Source: Heliocybe sulcata
Lineage: Eukaryota > Basidiomycota > Agaricomycetes > Gloeophyllales > Gloeophyllaceae
Length of the DNA: 64,000 nucleotides
Direction of reading: 5' to 3'
Assembly: GCA_004369045.1 (NCBI GenBank)
Contig: ML213506.1
Location: forward strand, 1,721,834 to 1,785,833
Of the stretch, positions 16,045 through 45,782 are shown piece by piece. A program made the translations under genes and the position numbers. Below the pieces are notes generated by a model. The model did not search any database. It worked only from the letters and a program-made list of their open reading frames with translations, and was not told the origin of the DNA. How positions within the stretch are numbered: the first letter of the stretch is position 1; each line of letters starts with the position of its first letter.

Positions 16045-16209
16045 GTTTAGGCTGCAGCTTGAATGTCGTAATTGTAGACTATTGTCGTATGATTCTCCCG
16101 CGTCGTATGCGTATACACCACAGTTTTTAAGCTTGGTCTTGAGTCTGCAGTGGGACAGACAGACAGCAGGACCTCGGCCGGCGTAGGAATATATGGCTAG
16201 ACGAAAAAG

Positions 16210-16294
16210 TGAGCCGACCCAGGTTCGAACTGAGGACCGCCTGTGCACCTTAACGATGTTAGACAGGCGTGATAACCAACTACACCATCGGCCC
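16210..16294 (-). tRNA. tRNA-Val (anticodon AAC) with an 11-12 nt intron
   Basis: Minus strand. The acceptor stem GGGCCGA / TCGGCTC pairs throughout with G-U tolerance, and the D arm is GTGTAGTTGGTTATCAC. The anticodon stem CCTGT / ACAGG encloses CT-AAC-A, giving anticodon AAC (Val). A short intron (TCGTTAAGGTG) follows position 37, and the T arm CTCAGTTCGAACCTGGG is standard. The discriminator is A at 16210, followed at once by a TTTTT pol III terminator (16204-16208). Confidence 0.93.
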
Positions 16295-16650: not shown

Positions 16651-18141
16651 TCACCGGTGCCCCTTCTTGCGCTTGCCGCCATTAATAACCGCCCCACTCT
16701 TCGCGACCATGGGCCGCAGCTCGTGGCGCTCGTCCAGCGCGCGGATCTGCGAGAGCGACAGCGGCTGGCCGGAGAGCAGCAGGATGGGCAGCGAGGGGTC
16801 GTCCGTGGCCTCTGTCTCCTCGAGGTACGGCGTCGTCAGCCGGTAGAGCAGCGGCTGCAGGGTGTCGGCGTCCGCTGTGGATCCGCGTCATTTAGTAAAA
16901 GGAACAGCGAGAGGAGGGGGAGGGACGTACGCCGCTGATCGACGTCGATGATCGTGGGCGACGGTTTGAGGTTCATGGCTTCCAAAAGCGCTTTAACCTC
17001 TCTTGACGCCGCGGAGTGATACTGCGAATGAATTGGATAGTCAGTTAGGCTGGAGGGACAGGGCGCAGATAAGGGGCGAGGAAATGAAATGGAATGGAGG
17101 GTGGCGTATTGCAAATGTGGAGGCATGTCGAGATTGGTGCGACGAGATTGAGCGTAGCGCTCGCTGTCCGACGTTCGACAGTAGTGAGAACGTCCGGACC
17201 CCATAGAGCACGCTCGGTAACTGAATGGAAGCATACTCGGAAGCGCACAGACAGGTCCATTTCGACTGCATGTCTCGACACAGGTGGACACCTTCTACTT
17301 CGTCAGGCTGTAGGGCAGCCTTAGGGAGGTCGTATTTCAAAGGGAATAGAATTGCGGACATCCGCTTCGACGGAATCTGTCAAATCGGACGCATGCTCAC
17401 CTTTGAGAACAGGATGACGGGGAAGCGATTCCACACGTCTCTCACAACTTCATCCAACTCATCCCTCGCCTTCTCTCCCCTGGTGTCAAAGTCCAGGACC
17501 AGCTCCGGATCGATAGGCTTGCTGGGATCGACACTCGGGGGAATCACATTCTGCGGCAAGGATACAATGAAGGATGTCACCGCCGCCAACTCCTCTGCAG
17601 GCTCCATGGCAAGTTGAGGCCGTGCCGGTTTGTGGTTGACAGCCCCATATTTCGGTCTGCGCTTGGGTGGCGACACGGGATGTGGGGGTATAAACGACAC
17701 AGGCGAAGGAGAAGACCTTACGCGGACTCCTAGATTTGGTTGAGCGACTAGGAAGACGTAGAAGGAGACAAGCGCGAGTAGCGAGAGCGCCAGGAATGTC
17801 GCTCGGTTCCAGTAACGGGGTCGCTTGCGGGTGTAAGGTGCGAGCGCATCGAGCAGTCTCAGAGGATTCGAGACTGCTGAGGGCGACGACGAGGTCACAG
17901 AGACCTGGATGCTGATGGAGGACGAGGAGGATGCTTGGGAGGGGTTGGCGTAGGGCAAAAGCGGGGGCTTTTCGCGGGGCTCTGGGGCGAGCATGGCAGG
18001 AGCGGGACGGGGGGACAGGGGCGGTGTGGGGAGCGACTTGATGTCAAACTCGATGATATTACCGCTGGCGTCGAGGGAGGGTGTTTTTGGGCCCATGAGG
18101 ATATGCATCTTGCGAGAGGAGTCGGTGCGGCGATGGGCCAT
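16651..18141 (-). CDS. Membrane-anchored glutaredoxin-like protein lacking the catalytic cysteine
   Basis: Three exons: 18141-17401, 17021-16931 and 16874-16651 (stop TGA). The protein starts MAHRRTDSSRKMHILMG, has a Pro/Ser-rich cytosolic stretch, one transmembrane helix (FLALSLLALVSFYVFLVA, about residue 120), a Pro-rich linker, then a thioredoxin-fold domain: FPVILFSK, KALLEAMNLKP, PTIIDVDQR, LPILLLSGQPLSL. It aligns with the Grx6/Grx7 type and with its neighbour at 19429-20368. At the active site, however, KYHSAASREVK replaces KTYCPFSKRAK, so Cys becomes Ser and Pro becomes Ala. Intron 1 is 379 bp, long for this genome. A redox-inactive paralogue with a binding or structural role is possible. 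It ends Lys/Arg-rich (GGKRKKGHR). Confidence 0.8.
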
Positions 18142-19428: not shown

Positions 19429-20368
19429 TCAGACGCCATTCACTTGGACGCCTGCTTGTTGGAGGATGCCCTTCAACTTGTCGTTATCGTGTAACTCGTA
19501 GATATCGTCCGAGCCGCCTATAAATCGAATCAGCACATACACATCCGCGCCCTCTCCGTCGGGCGGTACTTCAGCTGCACGTCTGACTCAGAAAGACACG
19601 GACCTATTGACATCCCATCCATTCTCCTCGTCAACAGCACATTCGGGAAGGTCGACCGCCCAGTCAATCGCCCCAGAAGCTGTTTCAGTATCCCCGCGTC
19701 GGAGCGAAGATCGACTTCTATGATTTTCGGTGGCGGGGAGAGTTTGTACGTCTCAAGGAGGGCTTTTGCTCGTTTCGAGAATCTACAAAAAATAGTGCTC
19801 AGCGCAAGGCACACTCTAATTCGTAGATGCGAGGCTCACGGGCAATAAGTCTATATGGCGGCAATATTGTAAAAAGAATTTATGGATAAGGAGAGCCCAC
19901 ACGGACCTTGCTAAAGACGACAATCGGATAGCGGTCAGCCAGCTCGCGCACATTCCTAGGCCAGTTATCGTCCTCCACCCCGGCAGAGAAAACACTCAGA
20001 TCCACCTCCGCGTCCCAGTCAACCGGACTCGGGTGGTCCTCCTGCACCCGGTCCAGCGCCATCGCCTCCGTCCGCTCGCTCGTCAGAAAGTGCAACAGCC
20101 CGTGTATCTCCTGTATGCGCATCGTCGCCGCAGCGCCCGAGCTAGTCATAGTCACATCGTACCCCACCCCGCTCTGCGCGTCGCTGTCCTTGAGATACGA
20201 CGAAGCGCCGTAGCCCGGCGGGGAGAAATAGAGGTATCCGCAGAAAGTGGCGAAGAGCAGGATGCACGACCAGATGATGCGCCGCCTGCGGAAGGTCGAG
20301 CGCGGTGAGGTGTACGTGCGATATTTGGGCCCGCCGCTGCTGTCGTACGAGGGGAGAACGGACGCCAT
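19429..20368 (-). CDS. Membrane-anchored glutaredoxin (Grx6/Grx7 type)
   Basis: Four exons: 20368-19907, microexon 19850-19840, 19782-19604 and 19517-19429. The N-terminus has a short basic cytosolic tail and one transmembrane helix (IIWSCILLFATFCGYLYF, about residue 30), so the domain faces the secretory lumen. The glutaredoxin domain has YPIVVFSK, then the active site KTYCPFSKRAK formed only when the 11-nt microexon is included, then PKIIEVDL, FPNVLL and MSIGGSDDIYELHDNDKLK, the GG glutathione-binding motif. CPFS is a monothiol-type site. Yeast Grx6/7 are comparable ER/Golgi enzymes in thiol balance. The paralogue downstream has lost the Cys. Confidence 0.87.
19840..19850 (-). other. 11-nt microexon encoding the glutaredoxin active site
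   Basis: Reads ACTTATTGCCC on the minus strand, flanked by CATATAG upstream and GTGAGC downstream. It joins AAG (19907) to ATTCTCG (19782) in frame as K-TYCP-FSK. It is needed to supply the catalytic Cys and Pro. Confidence 0.8.
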
Positions 20369-23302: not shown

Positions 23303-25912
23303 TCAGAACTTCGTCGACGACCCACTGGGAACAAGCCGTATAGACGCCTGGTTGGGTGGTATATCTGCATCTTCGTCATCGGTCGAGAACCGGCGCCACA
23401 ACCTCTCTGTCTCCTCCTTGTCGGCATCCTTATCGGCCCTGGGGTAGTGTCGGTGATGATGATGAGGAGAAGAATGCTGGTGGCGGCTGTTACGTACATC
23501 ATCGTCATCATATGAAGGCCGGATAGTTGATCCTGCAGTGGCTTGAGTTATTGAACTTATTGAAGGGAACGATGACAGTGTTGACGTTGAGGGAGAGCCT
23601 GCGAAGGGATCTTCAGCGCGGGGCCGGTGGTATGGGTCCGACGTGTCTAGGCCGGTTAGCACCGGAGGCGCCGACCTCAGGGCTCCATCATCGTAGTCCA
23701 GCGGTGGCAATGCAGGAAGGGAATTTTGCTTAGCCGTGTCGGCATAGTCTCGGGGTTTGGGACTAGGAGGTAGTGTCGCAGAATGCGGGGCAGTCCTGTG
23801 CTCATGGGTAGCGGTGTTGTCGCCCGTGACAGTCGGATGGTACTGATGTACCACGTCTTGGCTATCGAATTTGATGGTAGGATGACGTCCAGACATAGCG
23901 AGAGAGGGTCGACTTGCTACGGAACCTCTGTACGAGCCAGTCTCCAGTATGTCCGGAGAAGGCATCGGAGCATCGTATAGCTGGTGTCGCTTGAGGGCGC
24001 CTCGGAATTCGGCATGAGGATCATGCATGCTGGCGTCGCGGCCCATGTCCACATCGCGGTGGCGGCTTGTCCGAGACCGAATGGAGCCCGTGGTGTTCAT
24101 GCTCATTCTCCGAGCAGTTTTCGCCCTGATGATACTACCAACAGCACCGAACGAGCCGCGCAGAGCGTCGATACCAGGGTCCTCAACGCCCGCAACATCC
24201 TTCTCGTCCACAGCTTCGGTGTGCGCTCGAGCAGCTTGGAGGAGGATAGTAGACTTCCTGTCCAGTTTCTTAAACTCCGTGGGATCGACCTTCGACATCT
24301 GTAGGATCGTGATGCCGACACAAATGGTGAGAAAGCCCATGACAATAGTGAGAATCTGGGCTGCCGAGGCCTTGAGACCTTGGAATAGGACCTGCGACAG
24401 ATTTATTTAGCAAGAGGCGCCTGGATTATTGCGTGATGCCTACGATAGTGGTAACCATAGAGAAGAATGTGACTGTAATTCGGTGAGCTTTCTGTCGACA
24501 ATATACAAGAGAACGACATACATATAACGTAGTATGTCGGCGTGACTGTTTCGTTGTTAGCACTCAGCTGACAACATAGGAACGTTGAGAGAACATACCC
24601 ATTGCTGAAAACAAACATGAGTCTTTCGTGATCGACGACTTCTACAGAGTACTCACCAGTGTTGAATATAGCCAACGCCTTGTTCAAATAGAAGACTTCC
24701 GTAACTGCAACACAATAAGAAATGACGAGAATGACCGCAAGATGTATATGAACTCACTTAAGGTGGCAGCCACGAAAATTATCAGGAAATAGATAAACCA
24801 ATGTTTGAACTAATTGTATGATGATATCAGCATAGCCTCGTCATCCCAGTGACAATTGTTCTTTCTCACCTGATTATCACCGAATGCTGTGGTGACAACA
24901 GCCGCACCAAGACCAGTGGTAACACTGACACTGATGCCGCCAATCATGCTGCACACTAAGATATACCACAGCATAGTCTTTGTCCCATACCTGTCAAACT
25001 GTGAGATCTGCTAATCGATATACGAGTTCCGGACGTACTTGGGTGCGACGAAGAATACGATGACTAAAGCAACAGCGATGAGGACACTACCGTATGCGAG
25101 AAATCCTGGTGCGAGGAAGAGTTTCTGAAACTCGGTTATTTGGCCCACGGATGCTTCTTGGGGACCGTTCAGAGCTATTATGACGGAGCCAATCTGTAAG
25201 AGGGTCAATAACTTAAGAAAAAGAGGTATTGATGGCGGCCATACAATACAAAGGGCACATCCTAGCCACCCAAAGAAAGTAAGGGTCTCCTTGAGGAATA
25301 TGGACGATAGTATAGCACATATGACGACGGACAGTGCGCCCATAGGCGTCTGTGATAGCCCGTTTGAGCGTGAACTTGACAAGTATACGTCTGGGACATA
25401 CCACTATGAGTGCCTCCACGAACGCGTAGGCTGCCAGGAGGTAAGCAGGCGTGTAGACCGGGAACAAGCGAAACACGCACCAGCAAAATTACAGATCTCC
25501 CCCATAATCATCACTGCAGTCCGAGGTCACTCATGAATTACACAACGCATTGTAACAGACGTACTGGTCATTCCTAACCACCATAGCGGCTAAGCGAAGT
25601 ATGACATGAGCCCGAGCACAATGCACAGGAGCTTGGGATACGTACCGACTTCAGATAGGCCACTCCCTCTCCAGCTGCTTGCCCGGCCTGCGAGCGTAAC
25701 AGCCCTTTCTTCTTGAAGACAAAACTCGAGCCGATCAATAAACCACTCGCTACGGCCAATATGATGCCGACCACCTTCAGGAAAACCGACGGTTAGCATG
25801 TGCATGTGGCGGCGCCAGTGTAAGGGACACCGACTTTGAGATTAGAGCCAGCGGATAGGGTAGGAGATGCGGACGACGTCGCAGACGCCGACGAGGACGT
25901 TGAGGAGGACAT
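23303..25912 (-). CDS. NIPA-type magnesium transporter
   Basis: Multi-exon membrane protein of the NIPA (DUF803) family. Read on the minus strand it starts MSSSTSSSASATSSASPTLS, then VVGIILAVASGLLIGSSFVF, the family's KKKGLL motif, AYAFVEALIV-TPMGALSVVI, SIFLKETLTFFGWLGCALCI, IGSVIIALNGPQE, FLAYGSVLIAVALVIVFFV, KTMLWYILVCSMIGGISVSV, GLGAAVVT, FIYFLIIFVAATL, TEVFYLNKALAIFNTA, TPTYYVIFTFFSM and FLTICVGITILQMSK. That is about nine membrane segments split by roughly ten introns. A long Ser/His-rich cytosolic tail ends at 23303. NIPA proteins move Mg2+ across plasma or endosomal membranes. Confidence 0.9.
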
Positions 25913-43572: not shown

Positions 43573-45782
43573 ATGGCCTGGATATCTCTCCCGCAGTCTT
43601 TTCCAGCTTGGTTTCTGGACAGGACCACCTCCCGGCACATCTTCTATGGCATACTCATCGGCGTCTCGTTCTCCCTGGCTTCATCATCTGCCGCTCAGTA
43701 CAGAAGAGAAAAGAAGGAAGAAGAGATAAATGAGAAGTTCGAGCCAAGACCCATCGAGCTCAGGAGTGATGATATTGTTGACGGGGTAGTCGGACTCATA
43801 GGTATGGTAGAAGAGTACCTATGCTTCAGACGCGAGGTGATATAGAGGTACAGGCAACACGCCCCTCGTGAGGATACCCTCGCTGAGTAATGCATTGGGC
43901 GTTGAAGTCCTGGGAAAGGCGGAGGTTAGTGCTTAGCTTCGCGTCAACATGTCCCGGCAGTCCTGTACTTACCTAAAATACTTGATGAATACAGTTTTTG
44001 AACCCGGGAGGAAGTGTGAAAGACCGCGTTGCGCTCCGGAGTGCGTGTCCATGTGCTGGGTGCTGAGAAGTCTGGATGAACGTGAACCGGGCTCGCTGCA
44101 GTGATTCAGGACGCTGAACAGGCGGGATACTTGCACCCCTATACTGGCTCACGCATATTCGAGGGCACTGTTGGGTCAACTGGAATATCTATTGCCACGA
44201 TAGCCAAGGCGAAGTGAGTACTATGTCCTTATCCAGACCTCTCATAATGTTCGGTGCAGGGGATACAGTGCAAGTACGCCTCTCAGTCCTTACCCTACTT
44301 AGCGAATGCATAAGTCTTCACTAATGGAGCGCAGCAATTATTATGCCAGACGATGTCGCAAGAGAGAAAGTCCAAGCCCTCAAATGTCTCGGCGCAGAGG
44401 TCGAGCAAGTCCGGCCAGCCAGCATCGTCGACAAGAAACAGGTATTACTTTCCCATATTCCGCTGTCCTGCACCTCACTCGCATCGTCAACCGTAGTATG
44501 TGGTACGCATGTCACTCCCGATCGCAATCAATGCTCCGGTGACGGCTTGACTCGGCGCAGAATCTCGCCCGCCAACGAGCGGTACACTTTGGCGAACCCT
44601 CAACCTCGACAGAACACCCCCGCCCACATATCAAGACAGCCACTTCGACCGTCGTCGTCACCACCACCGCATCAGAGGATGTGATGGACGGCCTCGACAC
44701 GGTGCTTGAAGAACAAGAGCTGAGAGAGAAGCCGCGCGGGTTCTTCGCTGATCAGTTCGAGGTAAGCTTCCCGTTGCACTATTCCGAAAGGAGCAGGATG
44801 TGTGCGAATGGAGGTAGTGTACGTGTGTTACTGACCTGGGTGCGGATTCGACAGAATATGAGCAATTTCCATGCGCACCTCGAGGGTACCGGACCGGAGA
44901 TATGGAGGCAGACGAACGGGCGTGTGGACGCGTTCGTCTCCGGTGCAGGTTCGTCCGGTTACTCCTTATAAACCTTACCATATACTAACATTCCTCTCAA
45001 TGGACTGCTGCAGGTACGGGTGGTACCATCGCTGGCACCGGGCAATTCCTCAAGGCCATGAACGACGACATCCTCGTCGTGCTCGCCGACCCCGAAGGGA
45101 GCGGGCTGTACAACAAGGTCGGTGTTCTACTCCTCGATGATATCTCTTTGGGGTGGTACGCTGGATTGGACGCAGATCAAGTTCGGGGTGATGTACGATA
45201 GGAAGGAACGGGAGGGCTCGAAGAGGAGGCATCAGGTGGATACCGTCGTGGAAGGGATGTAAGTGGCGTCCTTTCGCTTGAGGTTCCTAACCGAGGCTAA
45301 TGTATCGCAATTGTTGGTGATAGAGGTAACAACCGCATGACGAACAACATCGACATGGCGATCTCCAGTATTGACGATGCGTACCGGTGCGCTCTCATAG
45401 TTCCTGTCCACTCCGCCCTTTTTGACTACGGGAACGGCGACGCAGGATAACGGACGAAGAAGCCGTGGCAATGTCCCGCTACCTCGTGCAGCACGACGGG
45501 CTCTTCCTCGGGTCGAGCAGCGCGTGCAACCTCGTCACCTGTGTTAAGCTCGTGAAGAAGATGGGGTGGAAAGACGGCGAGCGCGTCGTCACTATTTTGT
45601 CAGTCTCTGACTCCAGTCCAGCTTATGGGGGTGCTGACGAGTATGTGTGCGACGGCAGATGCGATTCTGGGAGCAGACACTACTCCAAGTTCTGGAACGA
45701 CGACTACCTCCGCGCGGCCGAGATACCTATCGATCCCTCCCTCATCGACGACCTCCTCTCCTCACCGCCGCCTCCCAGCTGA
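43573..45782 (+). CDS. Membrane-anchored cysteine synthase-like PLP enzyme (Mcy1 type)
   Basis: Fold-type II PLP enzyme of the cysteine synthase / cystathionine beta-synthase family. The N-terminus has a transmembrane segment (HIFYGILIGVSFSLASSS), as in the yeast mitochondrial outer-membrane protein Mcy1. Spliced exons give DIVDGVVGLIGNTPLVR, FLNPGGSVKDRVALR with the Schiff-base Lys, GSRIFEGTVGSTGISIA, IIMPDDVAREK, SGAGTGGTIAGTG with the phosphate-binding loop, GLFLGSSSACN and TILCDSGSRHYSKFW. The start was chosen at ATG 43573 because it directly precedes the anchor. It ends in LLSSPPPPS. About nine introns. Reaction by family: a sulfhydrylation that makes cysteine; the true substrate is not known here. 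Confidence 0.87.

Follow-up and report, generated by a model that had tools for sequence, protein, structure and literature searches.

Tiny exons have already been described in fungal P450 genes and in the Trichoderma transcription factor Xlr2, so the kind of exon considered here is a known one. In Phanerochaete, exons of 2–10 amino acids are reported for nearly one third of the P450 gene set (PMC1184071), and a single-nucleotide exon confirmed by transcript reads is described for the CYP621A P450 (PMC12940212). In Xlr2, a 20-nt microexon encodes two zinc-binding cysteines and was found to be condition dependent by RNA-seq (PMC11121469). On the protein side, the closest described systems are yeast Grx6 and Grx7, glutaredoxins of the secretory pathway with the active-site motifs CSYS and CPYS, respectively. 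In a study which includes ScGrx7, most active glutaredoxins are said to carry a Tyr where a CPFS motif carries Phe, the hydroxyl group of this Tyr is termed dispensable in a section heading, and the ScGrx7 variant C108S is reported to be redox-inactive and to have served as negative control (PMC7138851).

The gene described here is located on the minus strand of the analyzed window, a stretch of 64,000 nt from Heliocybe sulcata, and is predicted to consist of four exons. Exon 1 (19907..20368; 462 nt) encodes an N-terminal segment together with the first part of the glutaredoxin domain and ends in PIVVFSK. It is followed by intron 1 (19851..19906; 56 nt, GTCCGT..TAG, phase 0), an 11-nt exon (19840..19850; ACTTATTGCCC) encoding Thr Tyr Cys Pro and including the catalytic Cys, and intron 2 (19783..19839; 57 nt, GTGAGC..TTTTTTGTAG, phase 2). 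Exon 3 (19604..19782; 179 nt) contributes the bulk of the domain, from FSKRAK to DGMSIG, and is separated by intron 3 (19518..19603; 86 nt) from exon 4 (19429..19517), which contains the GGSDD motif and the stop codon. The spliced product has 246 aa and reads YPIVVFSK-TYCP-FSKRAKALL over both junctions of the small exon. As predicted, this exon has the properties of a microexon, being a short internal exon (up to about 30 nt) with GT-AG introns on either side which completes the reading frame. An earlier sequence-only reading of the window had described an 11-nt microexon between introns of about 56 and 57 bp within 19782..19907, in exact agreement with these coordinates. Its statement that the Cys and Pro of the active site come entirely from the microexon holds for the Cys, whose codon lies wholly inside, but not for the Pro, of which the microexon supplies two of the three bases (CC|A) while exon 3 supplies the third; any third base from exon 3 would still give Pro at this CC|N codon.

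The product belongs to the Pfam glutaredoxin family PF00462, which matches aa 149–207 with 44.2 bits (cut-off 22.9; E 2e-11). A phmmer search matched 46 distinct sequences of solved structures, the best being the plant glutaredoxin 1z7p (E 5.5e-16); structures of yeast Grx6 are among the matches (3l4n, E 3e-12; 5j3r, E 7.4e-12), with plant glutaredoxins scoring higher. The active site SK-TYCPFS has Ser at the fourth position of the motif and is not preceded by a long loop of the CGFS type, in contrast to KGTPDLPQCGFS in one of the CGFS glutaredoxins of the same genome (L002), which places the protein among the class I monothiol glutaredoxins. Furthermore, a hydrophobic stretch at aa 31–49 (mean hydropathy 1.78 in a hydropathy window) fits a putative membrane anchor like that of Grx6/7. 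From these features we infer that the gene encodes a class I monothiol glutaredoxin (motif CPFS) which resembles Grx6/Grx7 and is anchored in a membrane, a reading that extends to its location and its enzyme activity. Counting against this reading is the Phe of CPFS, at a position where most active glutaredoxins carry Tyr. The features shared with yeast Grx6 and Grx7 are a CP-aromatic-S motif, a short loop before the Cys, the proline motif, the GG-D motif and the N-terminal hydrophobic stretch. The motif itself differs, as CPFS is found here instead of CSYS or CPYS, and, unlike in the yeast genes, the active site is divided among exons by two introns. The other glutaredoxin genes found in the genome, two with CGFS (L001 and L002) and one with CPYC (L007), have an unbroken active site within a single exon.

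The splice-and-coding model used to assess the exon was trained on 276,681 bases of the same genome (31.6 Mb, 51 contigs), comprising the window, four small loci and twenty 10-kb stretches. Its final training round contained 58 predicted genes with 356 introns, which are themselves predictions. Predicted genes overlapping the glutaredoxin gene or its paralogue were left out of the splice training, while the long first exon of the paralogue may have entered the coding-composition set of the gene finder. Trained without the glutaredoxin gene, the gene finder returned the same exons, with introns of 56, 57, and 86 nt. With the end of exon 1 and the start of exon 3 given and a minimum intron length of 40 nt, five different exons could be placed between them, of which the 11-nt one alone preserves the frame. 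The frame is not preserved by any direct intron with a donor from −60 to +70 nt of the end of exon 1 and an acceptor within 60 nt of the start of exon 3.

The stretch of 124 nt between exons 1 and 3 was further subjected to 20,000 dinucleotide shuffles in which the first 6 and last 16 bases were kept. An in-frame exon of some kind appeared between exons 1 and 3 in 5,951 of these, so that an in-frame exon alone carries little weight. In 213/20,000 shuffles, such an exon equalled or exceeded the observed one in summed intron score; in 132/20,000 it carried Cys-Pro anywhere, and in 6/20,000 it had 11 nt and placed Cys-Pro at the active-site position. Additionally, the two phmmer alignments printed, out of the 46 solved-structure sequences matched, are gap-free across TYCPFS (1z7p and 2e7p). 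The 11-nt exon with the catalytic cysteine is therefore very probably a real exon, as far as sequence can tell. The opposite reading, namely that there is no microexon and the gene is either a pseudogene or draws another sequence from a different exon, could appeal to the ease with which shuffled DNA yields an in-frame exon. It is nonetheless extremely improbable, given that the family motif is restored exactly by the 11-nt exon, a match seen in just the six shuffles above, that all direct introns in the searched range break the frame, and that the domain is kept in exons 3 and 4.

If the microexon is skipped, the frame shifts and a stop is reached at codon 164, 149 nt upstream of the exon 3/4 junction; if intron 1 or intron 2 is kept, the stop falls at codon 163 or 159, respectively. 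In each case the glutaredoxin domain is lost. Such transcripts with early stops are probably degraded. The sequence-only reading had stated that skipping changes the frame and kills the enzyme, and the predicted outcome agrees, because a skipped transcript with a shifted frame and without the catalytic Cys cannot yield a glutaredoxin. The redox-inactive ScGrx7 C108S supports the notion that loss of this Cys kills the enzyme (PMC7138851).

Whether inclusion or skipping is favored can be judged from the strengths of the splice sites relative to those of the genome model. In the outer pair, the donor ranks at the 65th percentile and the acceptor at the 99th. The inner sites rank lower (acceptor 36th, donor 17th), and the two branch points are weak (10th and 19th). 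Some skipping is possible in view of these weaker inner sites and weak branch points. However, skipping requires an intron of 124 nt, which corresponds to the 98th percentile of length, with 7 of the 356 training introns reaching at least 120 nt. The two short introns score 5.3 and 6.1, as opposed to 2.2 for the 124-nt intron, which leaves inclusion ahead by about 4 units after allowing for the model's 5.3 per intron, a lead which comes wholly from the intron-length term; in other words, inclusion is ahead in the model since few introns of this genome are as long as 124 nt. RNA folding predicted for these 124 nt shows nothing unusual, with z −0.45 and folds as good in 69 of 200 shuffles. In the mushroom S. 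commune, exon skipping accounts for 1% of the splicing events of coding regions in a main analysis, although a looser junction analysis in the same report counts 1,527 skipping events there (PMC5034255). Taken together, the preference of the model, the ordinary fold and the rarity of skipping in S. commune make constitutive inclusion the better bet. We consider it highly likely that the gene encodes a glutaredoxin of the Grx6/7 kind whose 11-nt exon must be included, most likely constitutively and by intron definition. Under this mechanism, each of the short flanking introns would be recognized separately, and the microexon would simply be the sequence left over between two introns of ordinary type and would most likely always be included. 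A transcript has to keep these 11 nt in order to retain the codons for the catalytic Cys and the Pro.

It is very unlikely that the microexon acts as a regulated on/off switch which is skipped under redox or ER stress to give an unproductive transcript. Such a role would draw on the frame shift and early stop caused by skipping, on inner splice sites weaker than the outer pair, and on the precedent of the condition-dependent 20-nt microexon with its two zinc-binding cysteines in Xlr2 (PMC11121469). Even there, the authors report no reads joining exon 1 to exon 3, so that Xlr2 itself does not appear to be a case of simple skipping (PMC11121469). Moreover, the RNA fold around the glutaredoxin microexon is ordinary, skipping of coding exons is rare in S. 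commune by the report cited above, and the other tiny exons of this genome sit in ordinary enzymes. Nothing in the sequence indicates a regulatory switch. A more specific variant, a redox valve, would rest on the weak inner sites being flanked by a strong outer donor and an even stronger outer acceptor, such that inclusion tracks the state of the splicing machinery; stress would then lead to unproductive transcripts and lower the secretory-pathway glutaredoxin within minutes. This variant is likewise very unlikely. If inclusion were regulated, the arrangement would provide a simple splicing route to switch an enzyme off.

A degenerate paralogue of 351 aa lies nearby on the minus strand (16651..18141; exons 18141–17401, 17021–16931, and 16874–16651), for which the gene finder gives introns of 379 and 56 nt. 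The glutaredoxin and the paralogue share 40 of 116 aligned residues in BLASTP (E 2e-15). In the paralogue, the site SK|TYCPFS is replaced by SK|YHSAAS, the GG-D motif is missing, an insertion precedes the proline motif, and no Pfam match was obtained up to E 5. The sequence-only reading had noted an intron at the same upstream point and no microexon in the paralogue, which is borne out: the intron, of 379 nt, occupies the same position in the same phase. This intron (17022–17400, minus strand) is longer than all 356 training introns, none of which reaches 300 nt. The same reading went on to suggest that loss of a similar microexon may explain the dead site. The shared position and phase of the upstream intron and its unusual length in the paralogue would be in line with such a loss, as would the fact that a shift of the acceptor by 11 nt in the upstream direction would preserve the frame while exchanging four residues. 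Against this idea, the BLASTP alignment is gap-free across the active site (SK-YHSAASREV vs. SK-TYCPFSKRA), with equal numbers of residues and none missing. A search of the 379-nt intron for a hidden microexon produced 33 in-frame candidates, none of them supported, and the best sums to 1.0 as opposed to 4.9 for the single intron. The remaining domain is degenerate as well. An origin of the dead site by loss of an ancestral microexon is thus unlikely. Owing to the gap-free alignment, the poor candidate exons and the degenerate state of the whole domain, the dead site is better explained by substitution within a degenerate domain than by the disappearance of a microexon. A further gene in this part of the window, at 16209–16294 on the minus strand, is an intron-containing tRNA gene which was missed by the default tRNA scan. 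ARAGORN, with introns allowed, calls it tRNA-Thr(agt) with an 11-nt intron; the Thr identity is doubtful, since the anticodon can be read by eye as AAC (Val).

The glutaredoxin microexon resembles that of Xlr2 in being fungal, in encoding essential cysteines, in having a length that is not a multiple of three and in being of a kind often missed by annotation (PMC11121469). It differs from the Xlr2 exon, which has 20 nt, belongs to a transcription factor and was shown by RNA-seq to be condition dependent, whereas the glutaredoxin exon is predicted from sequence. With the fungal P450 micro-exons, it shares the position of a tiny exon within a highly conserved motif and the requirement for keeping the frame; the protein family is a different one, and the CYP621A exon is backed by transcript reads (PMC1184071; PMC12940212). 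No earlier report of the glutaredoxin microexon was found in a literature search over openly accessible papers. A search for its relatives gave 6 pattern matches in viral contigs and 42 in contigs of prokaryote genomes, none of which was confirmed, and no fungal relative. With this gene, a redox enzyme would join the fungal proteins with active-site codons in a tiny exon. In an annotation that overlooks these 11 nt, the gene would resemble a broken glutaredoxin or lack its catalytic site, so that it can serve as a good test for gene-calling programs.

Tiny exons are found elsewhere in this genome. Among predicted genes with a score of at least 20 and at least 450 coding nt, there are 12 internal exons of up to 15 nt, including the glutaredoxin microexon and one zero-length artefact. 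Three of the other 10 are located in recognizable enzymes and were compared with solved structures, and all three align through to the solved proteins; among the remaining seven, which lay outside this comparison, some predictions are probably wrong. A 14-nt exon beside the VGNED motif of a GH51 arabinofuranosidase (L009) aligns through with one gap a few residues later; the match is to MgGH51 (E 2e-174), an enzyme which we take to be from Meripilus giganteus. This strong match and the style of the introns fit an agaricomycete, as assumed in the sequence-only reading, although they are no proof of it. A 15-nt exon in an enzyme resembling 4-coumarate-CoA ligases (L010) also aligns through. The third enzyme, an alpha/beta-hydrolase, has a predicted exon of 11 nt at its nucleophile motif GWSYGG (L011:6335–6345, plus strand), with flanking introns of 53 and 54 nt. 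Like the glutaredoxin microexon, it has 11 nt, shifts the frame, carries an active-site motif, is flanked by short introns and is known as a prediction; the enzyme is different. This second 11-nt case suggests that many such exons may exist in intron-rich fungal genes. Extrapolated from three cases in 200 kb of sequence chosen at arbitrary places, the whole genome would contain some hundreds, as a rough figure. Judging by these predictions, tiny exons seem to be nothing unusual here.

Two further predicted genes in the window contain exons of this size. One, at 43573–45782 on the plus strand, is presumably cysteine-synthase-like and has exons of 5 and 6 nt; since a few expected residues seem to be missing from the protein, this gene model is probably partly wrong. 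The other, at 23303–25912 on the minus strand and presumably encoding a NIPA-like transporter, has 13 introns and a 6-nt exon which gives the AMV in NTAMVTPTYY.
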